64,000 nt of DNA from Deltaproteobacteria bacterium (GTDB lineage: Bacteria > Desulfobacterota > Desulfarculia > Adiutricales > Adiutricaceae). Positions 16,061 through 61,090 of the stretch are shown here, piece after piece. The stretch spans positions 1-64,000 of the forward strand of contig JAISRZ010000070.1 in assembly GCA_031273455.1 (NCBI GenBank), in the 5' to 3' direction. The notes beneath the pieces are model-generated. The model saw nothing but the letters and a program-made list of their open reading frames with translations. It made no database searches and was not told the origin of the DNA. Positions within the stretch are counted from its first letter, which is position 1; each line of letters opens with the position of its first letter. The position numbers and the translations under genes are program-made.

Positions 16061-17185
16061 ATGAAAAAATCGGATTTTCATTATCCCCATAAAGAGGTAA
16101 ATAAAAAATTAACAGTTGATAATAGCTATATAAAGGATATTATTATGGTTATTATTAATTTTTTAGCATGTTATGCTTCAGTAACAGTTGCTAAACAGTT
16201 AATAATTACTATATTTATTGCATTAAATGTAAATAACAATACAATTTCTCAAATTGTCAATGTTAGCACTCGGACAGTCCGCAATATTAAAAATAAAATC
16301 GCTTCCGGTGATATAGGCAATATCTTTTCCATTAAGAAAAATGGAAAGAAAAATGGAAGAAAAAGAAAATTAGAGCATATTAAACAAGATATTATCAATG
16401 AAATAGAAGCAAAAAATTATCATAATTTAAAACAAATAGTAAATATGATTGAAAATAAATTTAGTATCAAAGTCTCAGAAAGTACCGTAAGTAGATTTTT
16501 AAAATCAAATAATATTAAACGTTTGAAATGCGGCTCCTTTCCAGCAAAAGCGGATGTAAAAAAACAACGCGAGTTTTGCGAACATGTTTTGCTCCCTTTG
16601 ATTAAAAGAGCTACCTCTGGCTCCGTTAAGCTGTTGTTTATGGACGCTTCCCATTTTGTCATGGGCAATGATTATATCGGGTACGTCTATAGCAAGAGTC
16701 GGCGATTTATAACGACATTCTCGGGACGCATGCGGTATAATGTTCTTGGGGCGTTAGATTTTACAACAAAACAAATTACGACAGTGTCAAATGATACCTA
16801 TATTACGGCAACCCAGGTTTGTGAGCTACTCAAGAAAATTGCCGCGCTGTATGTAGATAAGCCTGTACATATAATACTTGACAACGCAAAATATCAAAAA
16901 TGCAAAACTGTTATTGAAACCGCTACACAACTTGGTATTAATCTGATATTTATACCACCTTATAGTCCAAATCTAAACTTAATTGAGAGATTTTGGAAAC
17001 ATGTTAAGAGCCAACTGAGTATAAAATACTTTGATAAATTTTCATTATTTAGTGAAACTATAGATAGCATCATTAATAATGCAGACAAAGATGATAAAAT
17101 AGTTCTCGACAGTCTTATTACTGGCAATTTGCAGCTATTTGATGATTTTGAATCAATTGACAATACAACATATATCAAAAAGTGA
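16061..17185 (+). CDS. IS630-family transposase
   Basis: The 374-residue DDE transposase cuts and joins the element ends. The N-terminal third is a helix-turn-helix DNA-binding region (NNNTISQIVNVSTRTVRNIKN and a second unit SESTVSRFLKSNNIK). The catalytic triad is visible as MDASHF (first Asp), IILDNAKYQ (second Asp) and PNLNLIERFWKHVK (Glu), with the family motif FIPPYSPNLN just before it. The frame is intact and length is normal. It is AT-rich compared with the host genes, consistent with foreign origin. Translation is probably limited by the hairpin directly upstream. Confidence 0.95.
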   Translation: MKKSDFHYPHKEVNKKLTVDNSYIKDIIMVIINFLACYASVTVAKQLIITIFIALNVNNNTISQIVNVSTRTVRNIKNKIASGDIGNIFSIKKNGKKNGRKRKLEHIKQDIINEIEAKNYHNLKQIVNMIENKFSIKVSESTVSRFLKSNNIKRLKCGSFPAKADVKKQREFCEHVLLPLIKRATSGSVKLLFMDASHFVMGNDYIGYVYSKSRRFITTFSGRMRYNVLGALDFTTKQITTVSNDTYITATQVCELLKKIAALYVDKPVHIILDNAKYQKCKTVIETATQLGINLIFIPPYSPNLNLIERFWKHVKSQLSIKYFDKFSLFSETIDSIINNADKDDKIVLDSLITGNLQLFDDFESIDNTTYIKK

Positions 17186-42637: not shown

Positions 42638-44579
42638 TAAAATCAAGTGGTTACCGCCCTTAACTAGCGAAAATAGCGAGATCCTCGCGTAAGCTAACCT
42701 TCTTTTGATTTTGGTCAATAATATCAATCGATATTATCTAAAAAACACTATAAAATCAGGCGCTTAAGGTCAACCAATTTTTTTAATCGCCCTAGACCAA
42801 CAGCCCAAGACCAACACCATAGCCTAACAGTCCTAGTCCAGACCCGCCGCCATAAATCGTCTAACCTGGGCGATAAGGCCCATCTTCGCCGCTTAAAGCT
42901 CTTCATTAACTAATATTGTAGTCGCAAGCGTTCGCCTTGGGTCAGATAATATCCGCCATAAAATCAAATAGTTACGTCTATCAGGACTTTATTTAACCAC
43001 CGCTATCGACCATCTATCCCAAGATAACCGCCCAACTTTTACCCCGCTCGTCCAAAAATTGACAATCAGTTTTAAAAACTAGCGTAAAATCAATAGGTTA
43101 AGCCCATTAAAAAACTTTGTTGGCCCCGGACCTATCTACCATTTCCCTTTCCGCTCAAAACAGTCAGGTTAAAGTTTTCTTAACCTCAGCTATACCGCCC
43201 AACTGTCAACGCGGTCGTTAGAGTCAGTCTATAGTTATTAAAAATCAGCGTAAAATCAATAGGTTAAGCCCATTAAAAAACTTTGTTGGCCCCGGACTCT
43301 CCTCCACTTCCCTTTCCGCTCAAAACAGTCAGGTAAAAGTTTTCTTAACCTCGACTCGCCCGCCTAACTGTCAAGACGAGCGCCAGAGTCAGTCTATAGC
43401 TACTAAAAATCAGCGTAAAATCAATAGGTTAAGCCCATTAAAAAACTTTGTTGGCCCCGGACTCGCCTCCACTTCCCTTTCCGCTCAAAACAGTCAGGTT
43501 AAAGTTTTCTTATCCTCGACTCGCCCGCCTAACTGTCAAGACGAGCGCCAGGTCGCTCCATATCTTTAAAAATCACCATAAAATCAAGATGTTAAGGCTT
43601 TGTAAAAACAGGATTTTTCAAGACAGCGCTCTCTCCTAATCCGATCCAACTAGCCCGATCCAGCTAGCTAGAGCGCCTTTCTCCTGGCCGCGAAGCGACT
43701 GGCCCTTTTTTTAGGCTTCTAGATTCCGGGGATATCTTCAAAAATGATTATTAAAATCAGGTAATTAGGGCCAGTCAGAGGATTCATTTACCCTAAATCT
43801 AGTTACCAGATCATCCTTAACCACAACCTAGCTAGGACGCCTTACCGTCCGCCGCCAACTGACCGGCCCTTTAAACTAAAGTCGTTGGAGTTGGTCAGTA
43901 TCTCCTAAAACCCTCTAAAATCAAGAGGTTAAGGCTAACAAAATCTTTTGGGGCCCCAGATTTTCCGGCCAAACCAGCCGACTAAAACTAGCTGGTTCTC
44001 GCTCTGGCGACCGACCTTGAGGGCTAGGGCCGTTAGAGTCGGTCGATAGCTTCTAAAATATTATTAAAATCAGTTAGTTATCGTCCAGCGGAGTATTCAT
44101 TCACCCCGGACATAGCCACCTGACCCACCACGACCCAAAAGCGCTCTAAAAGTCCTTAAACCAAGGCCAATTCTTAGCTTTGGCCGGGTTAAACTTGGCC
44201 CGAGGCGGACCAGGGTTAGGCTATTTTTTTTGTCAAAAAAAAGATTAAGGTTTGTTAAAGGACCGTCCGCGATCCACATATCTAATAAACTTCCAAACGC
44301 CTCTAATTTCACCCTCCCCAAAAAATAATTAAAAATTTTTTTCATAATAAAATCAATACGTTAATAAATTTTCTCCACAACAATTCCTGAAAATAAAGTG
44401 AGCTATCGAGCGATAAAGTGAGAATTAGACAGTGTATACCACTCTCAATAACCACTGGCCTTTATGCTCATTCTGTGAAACCCCGCTTAAAAAGCCCTCT
44501 TGAGCCTATTTGGGGGAAGCCTCTAAAAGCTTGAGTTCAAGTCATCTTCAAAAAAATCATTAGTAAAATCAATAGGTTA
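42638..44579 (+). repeat. Twelve-copy TAAAATCAnnnnGTTA array, diverged ~165 bp units
   Basis: Motif copies begin at 42638, 42751, 42959, 43085, 43251, 43416, 43579, 43752, 43916, 44065, 44348 and 44564. All twelve keep TAAAATCA exactly. The last four bases are GTTA in ten, CTTA in one and ATTA in one. Copies at 43085, 43251 and 43416 are identical (TAAAATCAATAGGTTAAGCC) and head near-identical units of about 165 bp. Several copies are preceded by a second AAAATCA about one helical turn (11-12 bases) upstream. All are in the same orientation, reading toward the DnaA-like gene. The pattern is that of protein-binding iterons. Confidence 0.9.
44321..44400. other. AT-rich candidate unwinding element
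   Basis: This is a run of A/T-rich sequence containing poly-A and poly-T tracts, motif copy 44348-44363 and the near-DnaA-box TTCTCCACA. It is the most AT-rich part of the tract and the best candidate for a duplex-unwinding element if this is an origin. Confidence 0.4.
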
Positions 44580-44693
44580 TTTATTGAGAAAAGGGGGGGC
44601 GGAAGGAACGGTTTTGGACAAGGGTTCCAAACTGGCCTTGCCATTCAAAAAGGGATCGAGTAAAGTCATCTCACTAACCGAACCCAAGCCGGG

Positions 44694-44801: not shown

Positions 44802-46274
44802 ATGGTTACAAACGAAAATGTGCCGGAGATGGATTTTCGCGGGATTGGCGGTCCGGCCTCCGAAGCCGATGACCAGCGGTCTGACGTCCTCGAGGACCGC
44901 TCGGTCGACCCCAATCCCCCGCTCGTCTCCGAAGAAGCCCCCCCATTGACCGATATTTGGGAAGCGGTCAAGGAGGAATTGTCCAAAACTGTGAACGCCA
45001 TGGACTTTAAGGGTTGGATTCAACCCATTAAGGCCCAGTCTAAAGGCCAGTCCCTGGTTTTGGTTTCCCCGAACAAATTTTCCCTGGACTGGGTCCAGGA
45101 TAATTATTTGGCCACGATCACCGAGTTAGTCAGACCAATCCGCTCGGATATCTCGGTGGAACTGATCTTAGATCCCAAAGCCCCCTCGGCCCCGGCCCCG
45201 AAACCCCAGCCTAAGCCGGCGGCTCAACGCGAATCACGGCGTTCCCTAACGCCCCTACGTTTAAACCCGAATTTTTCCTTCGAGGAATTTATCCCGGGCG
45301 ACCCCAACCGTTTACCTTTCGAGGCTTCCCAAGGCTTCGCTCGCGGGGATAATCTCGGCGCGGACATCTTACTCCTTTCCGCTGACCATGGCTTGGGCAA
45401 AACCCACTTGATTCAGGCCGCGGCCCAGAAGTTCAGGGCGCTTAACCCGGGTAAGGTCATTTTTTATTTGAGCGCCGAGCAGTACACCTCCGAGCTGGTC
45501 AGTTCATTAAAGCGCCATAATATTGAGGATTTCAAAAACAAGTACCGCAATTCTTGTGACTTTTTCTTGGTTGAGGAGATTTGCTTTCTCTGCGGCAAAG
45601 CCAAGTTCCAAGAGGAGTTTAATTACACCCTCGATCTCCTGTTAAACCATGGTAAGAAGATTATCCTGACTTCCTCCAAGGATCTTCGCGATATGAACCA
45701 CCTTTGCCCGCCACTCAAAAGCAAGTTGCTGGCGGCTTTACGGACGCCCATTAACCCCCCGGATTTCGAGACTAGGGTGGCCATCCTCGCCCATAAGGCC
45801 CAAAAAAGCGGCTTACGGTTGGAGCGGCCAGTGGTGGAGCTCTTGGCCGAAAAGCTTTTAAACGATGTCCGTCTGCTTGAGGGTTGTCTCATAACCATCT
45901 CCGCCACGAGTCGGTATCTACGGCGTCCGGTTAATATCGAGCTAGCTCGTCAATGTCTGGGCCAGGTTCAAGAGTCCACCAATAACGAGCTGACCTTAGA
46001 CCGGATCATTAAACTGGTCTGCCAGAACTTCCACCTGGAGGAAGCGAAGCTCACCTCCAGTTCCCGGCGCAAATCCGAAAATGAGGCCCGGAGTTTAGGT
46101 ATGTACTTGGCCCGTTGCCTAACGGACAAGACCTTCACGGAAATAGGCGCGGCCTTTAACCGGTCTCACTCCTCGACTATGCGGTCCATCAATCAAGTGA
46201 CCGAGCGTCTGACGCGCGACCAGAAGCTGAAGGATAAGATCGACTTTATAACTGGGCAACTGATCCAGAATTAG
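44802..46274 (+). CDS. Divergent DnaA-like initiator protein
   Basis: The 490-residue protein has DnaA architecture: domain I (about 50-125), Pro-rich linker (126-150), AAA+ domain (155-380) and DNA-binding domain IV (395-490). LSAEQYTSELVSSLK and FKNKYRN align well with DnaA. Key positions differ. Walker A reads ADHGLGKT (194-201), with the first Gly replaced. Walker B reads VEEICFL in place of IDDIQFL. KSKLLAAL (306-313) stands where the arginine-finger SRFxxGL belongs. The domain IV loop FGGRDHTT reads FNRSHSS, one residue shorter and without the base-contacting Asp. The sensor-2 Arg (NDVRLLEG) is kept. ATG follows a TGGTGG site. It is either the working initiator of this lineage with changed specificity or a DnaA paralogue or regulator. 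No dnaN follows. Confidence 0.85.
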   Translation: MVTNENVPEMDFRGIGGPASEADDQRSDVLEDRSVDPNPPLVSEEAPPLTDIWEAVKEELSKTVNAMDFKGWIQPIKAQSKGQSLVLVSPNKFSLDWVQDNYLATITELVRPIRSDISVELILDPKAPSAPAPKPQPKPAAQRESRRSLTPLRLNPNFSFEEFIPGDPNRLPFEASQGFARGDNLGADILLLSADHGLGKTHLIQAAAQKFRALNPGKVIFYLSAEQYTSELVSSLKRHNIEDFKNKYRNSCDFFLVEEICFLCGKAKFQEEFNYTLDLLLNHGKKIILTSSKDLRDMNHLCPPLKSKLLAALRTPINPPDFETRVAILAHKAQKSGLRLERPVVELLAEKLLNDVRLLEGCLITISATSRYLRRPVNIELARQCLGQVQESTNNELTLDRIIKLVCQNFHLEEAKLTSSSRRKSENEARSLGMYLARCLTDKTFTEIGAAFNRSHSSTMRSINQVTERLTRDQKLKDKIDFITGQLIQN

Positions 46275-46360
46275 GCTATCGCCCCTAAACCACCTATCTG
46301 GATCGTTAAAAGGCCCGTCCCGGATTGTTTTTCGCGGGCGTGGCCAAGGATAAAGGCCTC

Positions 46361-46639
46361 ATGGACCGGATCATTGAACTTTTACGCCAGTGCTTCCAAG
46401 TGGAAAAAAGCGAGCTTATCTCAATTTCGCGGCGGAAGTCCTGTCATAAAGCTCGGAGTTTGGGTATGTACTTGGCCCATCGCCTAACGGGCCAGACCGT
46501 AGCGGAAATAGGCGAAGCCTTTAACCGGACCGAAAGCGCGGCTATTCACGCCATTAACCAAGTGGCCGCCCGTTTACCCCAAGACCTGGAACTAAAAAAC
46601 ACGGTGGCCTATTTAACCGGCCAACTACTCCAGAACTAG
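46361..46639 (+). CDS. Stand-alone DnaA domain IV-like protein
   Basis: About 93 residues aligning along their whole length with the last 92 residues of the preceding DnaA-like protein (MDRIIELLRQCFQVEKSEL against LDRIIKLVCQNFHLEEAKL, and identical SRRKS, ARSLGMYLA and TGQL segments). It carries only the DNA-binding domain, with no ATPase. It is evidently a partial tandem duplication that became its own gene. The recognition loop differs from the parent (FNRTESAA against FNRSHSST). ATG 46361 has AAAGG just upstream; TTG 46325 or GTG 46340 are alternatives. It probably competes for, or co-binds with, the upstream protein's sites. It ends 8 bases before hisC. Confidence 0.75.
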   Translation: MDRIIELLRQCFQVEKSELISISRRKSCHKARSLGMYLAHRLTGQTVAEIGEAFNRTESAAIHAINQVAARLPQDLELKNTVAYLTGQLLQN

Positions 46640-57637: not shown

Positions 57638-60600
57638 TTACCCGATCAAGCTTAGAGCTAACTGGGAGAGGCTGTTAGCCTGGGCCAGCATGGAGGTGGC
57701 CGCCTGGGCGAGGACGTTGTTCCGGGTGAACTCCGTCATCTCGGTGGCCACGTCCACGTCAGAGATCCGGCTCTCCGAGGCTTGGAGGTTTTCCGCCTGA
57801 ACAGTCAGGTTGGTCATGGTGTTCTCCAAACGATTCTGGAGGGCGCCAAGGTCAGCCCGGATCTTGTCTTTAGTGTTAATGGCTTCGGTAATGGCGTCCA
57901 AAGCTTCCTGAGCCGTGGACTGGGTCCGGACCTCGCCACCAGCCCAGGGGCTGTCGGCGGCGTTTTGGATTTCCACAAAGCTGTTACGATCCATACCGTT
58001 AATGATCTTGGCCGATAGAGCCGGGGTGTTGATCTCCCCAGCGTTAGCGATCCAAAGATCTCTTTCTTTGCCCACGTCCCGACCATTCAAGGTCACGTTC
58101 CAGACCTCAGTGCCGAGGTAAGAGCGGGATTGGGTAGGCGTCATTGTGCCCCAGTGTTCCCCGCCCAAAGTAAAGGAAGTGCCGTCCTCATGCATTTCCG
58201 CGGCGGCCACGTTCTCGAAATCAACGTAGTCTAGAGCCGCCCTTGAAGCGCTGTCGCTGCCACCTACATCGCAGGCCAATAGATCGTTTTTGTTCCCGCC
58301 CTCTTTGGCGAAAACGTAAACCATATCGGCTTTATTGCCATTGGAGTCAACCGACTGGACCATAGCCCAAAACTCGCTGTTAGCGTTATGGTTAATGGCC
58401 GAGGCTAGAGCGAAAGCCCCAAAATTAGACTGGCCGCTATTTTCTCCACCTTTTAAAAACTGCGAGGTGCCAGCGCTGGCGACCATAATTTTGGTCTTGC
58501 TAATGTCGACCGCCCCATCAACGACGATCGTTGTGGTATAGGCGGACGACCCTTCATTTTTAACCTTAATAGAACTGAATCCTTTAATGTCACCAGTTGA
58601 AATGGCCACTGGCGGAAGGCTAGTCGCCGTTTCCCTTATCCTACCCTTTCCAGTGCCTTGTTTATCAGCTAAAAGGTTAGTGATAGACTCGGCCAGAGCT
58701 TGCGCGATGTAGGAAACCGTGGAATCAGCCGCAAGCGCTGAAAAGCCATTGCCTGCAGCTACGTCAAAACCAGTGGCGCTGGGACCAGCGATAAAGGCGC
58801 TGGAGCCAATATAGGCCGTTGCGCTCAAATCATCTGTGCCAACTGTATCAACTTTGAGTTTGGCGTTCAGATTGTCCAAGCCGAGGTACGGTGGATCCGC
58901 GAGTCCTCCCCCGTCAAGTTTGACCGACTGTTGACCCTTCAATAGGGCGTCACTTTGCAGCTTAGCTATAAGGTCACCAACGCCCGCATTGACTAGGTTA
59001 AGAATATCGGTGCTACTGTGTCCAGCATTTAAGATATTATAAAGAGCGTTTCCGGGGTCATTTAACGCAGTGGTCAATACCGTGTTTAGATGCGCGCTTC
59101 CGGTACCGGAAGCCTTAAATATAATGCTGCTTGTGCCGGTTCCACCAGAAATAATAATTGCTAATTGTTTCACACTAAACGCTGAAGCGATTGTCGCGCT
59201 TTCCGTCCAGTTACCTGCGGAATCAACGTAAATACCAGCGGATAATGATACTTTACCTCGGACATTTCCACTACTACCAATAGTGGTGCCTACCATACTT
59301 GAGGTGATCAGTGTTCTAGAGCCTCCAGCGTCATAAGTATACGTCAGATTTAAGGCTGAATGCTTGTAGTAGTCATCGTTAAGCTTGGCTTGAGCAGAGG
59401 TAATAAGAAGGTTCTTAGCGATTTCCGAAGTCTCTCCAGTCGCGCTCATAGTAAACACGGGATTTATCGCTGTAAATGTGGACCTAAACTTTAATCCGGC
59501 GTTATTTATGGCTGAGTTAACGTCACCATTAAAAGCTAAATACGCGTTCCTCGTCACAAAACTATCGGTAAAGTTGAAAGTGCAGGTCGCCACGTATTTC
59601 GCGGAATTTGTGTTTTCAATGTAATAGACGACTTCGTGTAAGCCAAAAAGTGAGGCCAGTTCGGAGTCGGTGGTCCAATTGCCGCTAGTGTTGGCGTAAA
59701 CGCCAGTATTGACTATCAGGGTTTCCTTACCGTTAATGGTTCTGGTTTCCTGGTTAATGGCCTGATCGCCGTTCCCGCTTTTAGTGACCGTGGTGGAGCC
59801 AACCTGAAAACCAGTTGTCACCCCAGCGTCAACAGTCAGTCCTGAAGTGCCCAAACCCAAAGAATTCCAGGCTCTGTTTAACGCGCCAACCAAACTATCC
59901 CTAGCCTGACTGAGGGCCAGAGCGGAATTCGCGTTAGTGGCCGACCCAACGCCGGAGACCGTAGCCGCGGTGAATCCCATATTTCTTAGAGCGTTCCTGT
60001 CAATCCCAGCGGCGCTAAGCGCTTTGATTTGGGCATCATTTAACGTATAACCTAAAGCGATGTTCTGGAGAACCGAGTTGTTAGTATACGATCCTTTCCC
60101 CGTAACGGTAAAAGTGTCAGGGACCGCCGGGACTTCGGCCGAAAATTCCCCGCCAGCCACCCTAGCGCTACCAAAGACGTAAGCCTCATCGCCGATGCAG
60201 ACGGCCACAGTGCCGCCGCTCAAAACTTGCTTATACAAACTAGTGGCGTCAAACTGAATGCCCACGCGGCTCTGGCTACCGGCGTTAACCTTGTTGACGA
60301 GAGCTTGGAGGCTATCGCTGGAAGTGACCGTGTACCGGCCAGCCAAATACCGACCAGTCAAAAGGGCGGAATCGCTATTTTGCGTCCAATCCCAGTTGTA
60401 GCCATAACTAAAAGTCTGGCCGCTGGTGAAACCAGCGTCTCCGTCTAAAGAGCTGTAACCGGCGGTGCAGCAACCAGGTCCGGCTAAAGGCCCTGAGCCA
60501 GCCGCGCCTTGGCCCCAAATGTCGTTTTTGGCGTCGCCGCCGACCCGTAGACCAGTGGAGCTAGTGGCCCGAGAGTCCCCGATGTTAACAAAGTAGTAAT

Positions 60601-61090
60601 CCTCAGCCGGATTGTTGCTGACCCCAAAGTGAATCTTAAGGCCCTGCCCACCGTGCTGATTGGTGACCGAACCATCCAGGAGCTTAATCCCGTTGAAGTT
60701 TGTGGCGTTGGCGATACGGTCAATTTCCGCGGCCATGGCCTGATACTCGGAATTGATGATCTCCCGCTGGGCCGTGGTGTAAGTGCCGGTAGACGCTTGC
60801 TCGGCCAGTTCCTTCATCCGGATCAGTTTCTCGTCAATGACGCCCAGAGCCCCATCAGCCGTCTGGATCATGCTGATGGCGTCAGCCGTGTTCCGGATGC
60901 CCTGGTTCATGGTGGCGATGTCCGCCCGCATCATTTCCCGAATGGCCAGACCAGCGGCGTCATCGGCGGCGCTGTTAATCCTTAGGCCTGAGGACAGCCT
61001 TTGGACGCTGGTGGACAATCTACCGTAGATTGTCCCCAGATTTCTGGCGGCGGTTTGCGCGGCCATGTTGTGGTTGATAATAAGAGCCAT
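57638..61090 (-). CDS. fliC: Giant flagellin, 1150 residues
   Basis: Filament subunit of the flagellum. The N-terminal D0/D1 domain (1-140) is typical: ALIINHNMAAQTAARNL, QRLSSGLRINSAADDAAGLA, and NFNGIKLLDG. The C-terminal D1/D0 domain (about 1060-1150) ends ATSMLAQANSLSQLALSLIG. Between them are about 900 residues of surface-exposed variable sequence rich in Thr, Ser, Gly and Ala; common flagellins have 280-550 in total. The gene has no frameshift. AAGGAGGA precedes the ATG and a strong terminator follows. The central part (about 58.6-60.1 kb) is less GC-rich than the ends. Export should use the gate encoded at 18.6-34.1 kb, with FliA as sigma factor. Confidence 0.95.
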   Translation of the reverse strand: MALIINHNMAAQTAARNLGTIYGRLSTSVQRLSSGLRINSAADDAAGLAIREMMRADIATMNQGIRNTADAISMIQTADGALGVIDEKLIRMKELAEQASTGTYTTAQREIINSEYQAMAAEIDRIANATNFNGIKLLDGSVTNQHGGQGLKIHFGVSNNPAEDYYFVNIGDSRATSSTGLRVGGDAKNDIWGQGAAGSGPLAGPGCCTAGYSSLDGDAGFTSGQTFSYGYNWDWTQNSDSALLTGRYLAGRYTVTSSDSLQALVNKVNAGSQSRVGIQFDATSLYKQVLSGGTVAVCIGDEAYVFGSARVAGGEFSAEVPAVPDTFTVTGKGSYTNNSVLQNIALGYTLNDAQIKALSAAGIDRNALRNMGFTAATVSGVGSATNANSALALSQARDSLVGALNRAWNSLGLGTSGLTVDAGVTTGFQVGSTTVTKSGNGDQAINQETRTINGKETLIVNTGVYANTSGNWTTDSELASLFGLHEVVYYIENTNSAKYVATCTFNFTDSFVTRNAYLAFNGDVNSAINNAGLKFRSTFTAINPVFTMSATGETSEIAKNLLITSAQAKLNDDYYKHSALNLTYTYDAGGSRTLITSSMVGTTIGSSGNVRGKVSLSAGIYVDSAGNWTESATIASAFSVKQLAIIISGGTGTSSIIFKASGTGSAHLNTVLTTALNDPGNALYNILNAGHSSTDILNLVNAGVGDLIAKLQSDALLKGQQSVKLDGGGLADPPYLGLDNLNAKLKVDTVGTDDLSATAYIGSSAFIAGPSATGFDVAAGNGFSALAADSTVSYIAQALAESITNLLADKQGTGKGRIRETATSLPPVAISTGDIKGFSSIKVKNEGSSAYTTTIVVDGAVDISKTKIMVASAGTSQFLKGGENSGQSNFGAFALASAINHNANSEFWAMVQSVDSNGNKADMVYVFAKEGGNKNDLLACDVGGSDSASRAALDYVDFENVAAAEMHEDGTSFTLGGEHWGTMTPTQSRSYLGTEVWNVTLNGRDVGKERDLWIANAGEINTPALSAKIINGMDRNSFVEIQNAADSPWAGGEVRTQSTAQEALDAITEAINTKDKIRADLGALQNRLENTMTNLTVQAENLQASESRISDVDVATEMTEFTRNNVLAQAATSMLAQANSLSQLALSLIG

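Follow-up and report, generated by a model that had tools for sequence, protein, structure and literature searches.

The only DnaA of a Desulfobacterota lineage is a type-2 protein with lysine at the arginine-finger position

DnaA initiates chromosome replication. In Escherichia coli DnaA, the arginine finger (Arg285) is needed for intrinsic ATPase activity and for formation of ATP-specific oligomers (PMC5742627). The finger is a functional residue of canonical DnaA, and homology does not require it. Thermotoga maritima DnaA combines a short FNRSH recognition loop with a non-canonical ACCTACCAC box (PMC10316083). The related protein Hda has a DnaA-like AAA+ domain and is without domains I and IV. 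Here we describe a DnaA that belongs to a group we call type 2, which is a working label of this study and not an established name. Our searches of openly licensed papers, with the terms used, returned no account of type-2 DnaA.

The dnaA gene and its product

We analyzed a 64-kb window (the whole stretch of DNA studied) from an assembly of 4.24 Mb in 157 contigs that is 94% complete. The following features of the dnaA gene were identified (E. coli numbering is used for comparisons):

44802..46274, + strand: dnaA, type 2, full length (domains I, III and IV), identified from the ORF, domain matches, tree and model
45381..45404, + strand: Walker A ADHGLGKT, residues 194-201; E. coli Gly172 is replaced by Ala, Lys and Thr are kept
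45573..45578, + strand: Walker B Glu258-Glu259, a usual state in type 2
45708..45740, + strand: box VII and arginine-finger segment PPLKSKLLAAL, with Lys308 at the position of E. coli Arg285
45867..45884, + strand: sensor 2 VRLLEG, Arg retained in the alignment
46155..46175, + strand: recognition loop FNRSHSS, shorter by one residue than the E. coli loop

The 490-amino acid product was matched by the DnaA_N, Bac_DnaA and Bac_DnaA_C profiles, and carries domains I, III and IV on a single chain, as expected of DnaA and unlike Hda. It passes the NCBI cut-off for the DnaA equivalog TIGR00362 (353.6 vs. 343.9 bits) and scores 67.9 for TIGR03420 (Hda), for which the cut-off is 194.8. The I-III-IV order, the helix-turn-helix domain IV and the characteristic Walker A Lys and Thr and sensor-2 Arg are shared with canonical DnaA of E. 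coli and B. subtilis. The predicted model has the DnaA fold (mean pLDDT 74), and its AAA+ domain superposes on domain III of B. subtilis DnaA (target TM 0.95, 1.5 A).

Differences from the canonical E. coli and B. subtilis proteins are the replacement of the first Walker A Gly, the sensor-1 Asp (Asp269), the box VII Arg (Arg281, here Pro) and the arginine finger, as well as the shorter loop and a gene location away from dnaN. In the DNA-binding domain, the equivalents of Arg399 and Arg407 are retained and Asp433 is Ser. The same short loop occurs in T. maritima DnaA, which has canonical Walker motifs and an arginine finger. A sequence-only reading of this DNA had listed the altered Walker A, the Glu-Glu Walker B, the KSKLLAAL finger segment and the short loop, along with the preserved fold and sensor-2 Arg, and the alignment and model agree with it on each; the sensor-1 substitution was absent from its list. 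In AAA+ proteins the catalytic residue is usually a Glu in the second Walker B position, so the Glu-Glu pair alone does not point to a loss of hydrolysis.

The Bac_DnaA domain occurs once in the whole assembly, in this gene. Two matches to domain IV were identified, the second in a short ORF directly behind dnaA:

46325..46639, + strand: separate ORF duplicating DnaA domain IV, 54% identical, with an alternative start ATG at 46361

The loop of this ORF is FNRTESAA; with Glu in place of the loop His, its binding site may differ from that of the dnaA product. The estimated dN of 0.31-0.33 and dS of 0.63-0.69 give a dN/dS of ~0.5. No copy was found at the dnaA locus of any of the examined relatives. 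Elsewhere in the window are a gene for a 1150-amino acid flagellin-type protein (57638-61090, - strand), which has normal Flagellin_N and Flagellin_C ends and ~900 residues between them, and a DDE transposase gene (16061-17185, + strand) within a stretch of low G+C content.

Type-2 DnaA in the phylum and in the family

Residues were compared in 34 type-2 proteins of the family, 24 type-2 proteins from the rest of the class and 15 canonical proteins, and in a phylum sample of 35 type-2 rows from 29 genomes. The Gly172 position is occupied by Gly in all 15 canonical proteins and by Ser or Ala in 30/34 type-2 proteins of the family, 24/24 of the other class members and 33/35 phylum rows. Glu is found at Walker B position 235 in 31/34 and 24/24 of the family and other class proteins, respectively, and at position 236 in 12/34 and 23/24. 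The short loop is present in all 35 phylum rows, and almost no type-2 protein retains the sensor-1 Asp or the box VII Arg. Every type-2 row has the Walker A Lys, and nearly all have the sensor-2 Arg. The window DnaA has the marks of the type, namely the short loop and other residues in place of the Walker A Gly, the sensor-1 Asp and the box VII Arg. It shares these and the Walker B Glu with type-2 proteins of other Desulfobacterota families, which are likewise not encoded beside dnaN; in those families many genomes have a single DnaA.

In a quick IQ-TREE analysis, the canonical DnaAs form one clan of 20 rows (SH-aLRT 99) that includes the T. maritima and Aquifex proteins. All type-2 rows lie outside it, and the window DnaA groups within its genus, apart from the canonical clan. 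An earlier quick tree of 85 rows agrees on the split. Based on type-2 and canonical profile scores, a tally compiled by hand for 118 sampled genomes includes ~39 with type 2 only, 13 with both types and ~64 with canonical DnaA only. Loss of the Walker A Gly, the Glu-Glu Walker B and the short loop are the norm for type 2 in the phylum. Because about one third of the sampled genomes carry type 2 only, three of the four peculiarities of the window DnaA are ordinary.

The arginine finger is different. It is almost always kept in type-2 proteins of other families: in 24/24 from the rest of the class and in 33/35 phylum rows, where the two exceptions are Ser in both rows of one genome (G124). Lys was identified only in the window DnaA and in four genomes of the same genus (G002, G003, G005 and G006); in three further family members the residue is Thr (G004), His (G026) or Leu (G028). 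Lys308 is the remaining unusual feature of the window DnaA. The sequence-only reading had treated all four substitutions as departures from ordinary DnaA and as possible signs of changed replication control. Since three of them are normal in type-2 DnaAs, many of which are the sole DnaA of near-complete genomes, that view largely falls away and these three give no evidence of changed control in this lineage; the finger is still a departure.

No dnaA was found next to dnaN in the window genome, where dnaN adjoins gyrB on a different contig; a search for a canonical copy, which had been suggested as a check, did not find one. The dnaN-gyrB pair is also retained without an adjacent dnaA in the inspected family members. 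We identified type-2 dnaA in 34 of the 37 genomes of the family, mostly within a conserved xseA-dnaA-hisC order, and canonical dnaA in none of the 37. The same search does recover canonical dnaA elsewhere in the class: in other families, most genomes have it beside dnaN and a second, type-2 dnaA at another locus. A canonical gene could be absent from this incomplete assembly alone, but this is implausible for the whole family. The canonical dnaA beside dnaN has been lost from the family. The sole DnaA of the lineage is the type-2 protein, inherited vertically from a DnaA type of the Desulfobacterota. The earlier alternatives of a main initiator or a paralogue both fit in part, as the type coexists with canonical dnaA in sister families and is the sole dnaA here.

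One genus of the family (seven genomes) encodes additional, very divergent DnaA-like proteins (L098, L099, L114 and L115). These have a GGRDHSTVIHA loop and a Walker A start altered to ..WGKTH. In the tree they fall on the canonical side, on a long branch.

The upstream region, DnaA boxes and the origin

The gap between xseA and dnaA is 2.7 kb long and contains the following:

42638..44579, + strand: 12 same-strand repeats TAAAATCARNNNNTTA that fit the IHF consensus WATCAANNNNTTR; an A-tract lies immediately 5'
44443..44451, - strand: 9-mer TTATTGAGA, conserved 5' of dnaA in many genomes of the family and a possible site for DnaA or a regulator
44581..44589, + strand: second copy of TTATTGAGA

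Nine exact copies of WATCAANNNNTTR occur in the gap, compared to 0.11 expected, and none in the remaining 61 kb of the window. Part of the array is accounted for by a tandem 165-bp duplication. The 12 same-strand copies far exceed chance and lie directly 5' of the sole dnaA, the product of which has a recognition loop that differs from the canonical one, so the repeats might be boxes for this DnaA and the gap an origin with a new box. We consider this highly improbable. The motif, with its A-tract, matches the published IHF consensus, (A/T)ATCAAnnnnTT(A/G) (PMC5742627), and the genome encodes HU/IHF-family proteins, the best matches of which include IHF alpha and beta, below curated cut-offs. 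In the genus of the window DnaA, the extended motif is scattered over all seven genomes, mostly as single copies. Relatives have only 0-2 IHF-type sites upstream of dnaA, and GC skew does not flip here. The reading as a novel DnaA box is rejected in favor of one in which the repeats are candidate IHF sites, as judged from the motif.

The canonical box TTATNCACA does not occur in the 64-kb window. Because of this, and because T. maritima DnaA with the same loop has the non-canonical box noted above, it is plausible that the window DnaA reads a box other than the canonical one. A possible box, TTATTGAGAA, is conserved 5' of dnaA in many genomes of the family, yet genome-wide it is only modestly more frequent than its reversed control. 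A repeated element found upstream of dnaN in the family by motif search resembles a -10 promoter. Motif searches around the sole type-2 dnaAs of other families yielded nothing clear.

GC skew in the window is ~-0.05, with the same sign on both sides of dnaA, so nothing obvious places the gene at the origin. The analysis located neither an origin nor a DnaA box for this genome. In G029, a near-closed genome of the family, skew was too weak to locate an origin and no box cluster was identified. Three more IHF-type sites lie in a 1.6-kb gap directly 3' of mnmG/gidA (G000:C26:20265-21874, L287). This gap is a possible origin; GC skew is unchanged there.

Possible roles of a DnaA with a lysine finger

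We think it reasonably likely that the window DnaA is the working initiator or regulator of its lineage, probably binds ATP, and would have a weakened ATP-dependent assembly switch. Its domain make-up, sole-copy status, synteny and the absence of dnaA beside dnaN are direct observations. Binding of ATP and DNA is likely because the relevant residues are retained (for ATP, the Walker A Lys and Thr, the second Walker B Glu and the sensor-2 Arg). Domain IV would bind double-stranded DNA at a site other than the canonical box, and the protein may act both as chromosome initiator and as transcription regulator. With Lys308 as the finger, a subunit would sense the ATP bound by its neighbor less well than in E. 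coli. To judge from E. coli genetics (PMC5742627), this residue likely makes assembly less dependent on ATP; DNA binding, domain I contacts and IHF-type bending may then matter more, and an ATP/ADP switch less. It is possible, but unlikely, that the sole DnaA, having lost the arginine finger, initiates or regulates without the ATP-sensing switch and that the IHF-type array upstream of dnaA takes over part of the control of assembly or expression.

The finger Lys may instead work as Arg does, in which case the protein would be like any other type-2 DnaA. Lys preserves the charge, and the position is not absolutely fixed, as G124, which is near-complete and has a single type-2 DnaA, has Ser. We doubt this explanation, given the near-uniform retention of Arg in the class and phylum samples. 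Alternatively, the lineage may be drifting to DnaA-independent replication, with DnaA keeping DNA binding and perhaps regulation while ATP-dependent assembly decays. There is precedent in cyanobacteria, where DnaA-independent replication is accompanied by irregular skew (PMC7198777). The finger is replaced in five members of the genus and altered in three other genomes of the family, skew is weak in the near-closed genome, and DnaA evolves rapidly in the genus (35-54% identity, vs. 58-67% for DnaN; DnaA is also faster than GyrB, HisC and Pta), which would also fit relaxed constraint. However, domain I and the ATP-binding residues are kept, the steady skew in the window is expected for replication from a defined origin, and all but three genomes of the family retain the gene, mostly with conserved synteny. 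Drift of this kind appears quite improbable. We retain the working initiator or regulator with a weakened switch as our explanation, although the fast evolution of DnaA, the constant sign of the skew around the gene and the failure to find an origin or a DnaA box in this genome weigh against it.

Type 2, often the sole DnaA present, suggests that much of the phylum can do without the Walker A Gly, the sensor-1 Asp, the box VII Arg and the usual loop length, all of which are treated as fixed in models based on E. coli. If initiation occurs without the finger, it would depart from the general view that DnaA assembly is switched by ATP sensing. The genus with the Lys finger offers a test of whether bacterial initiation in general requires ATP sensing by Arg285.
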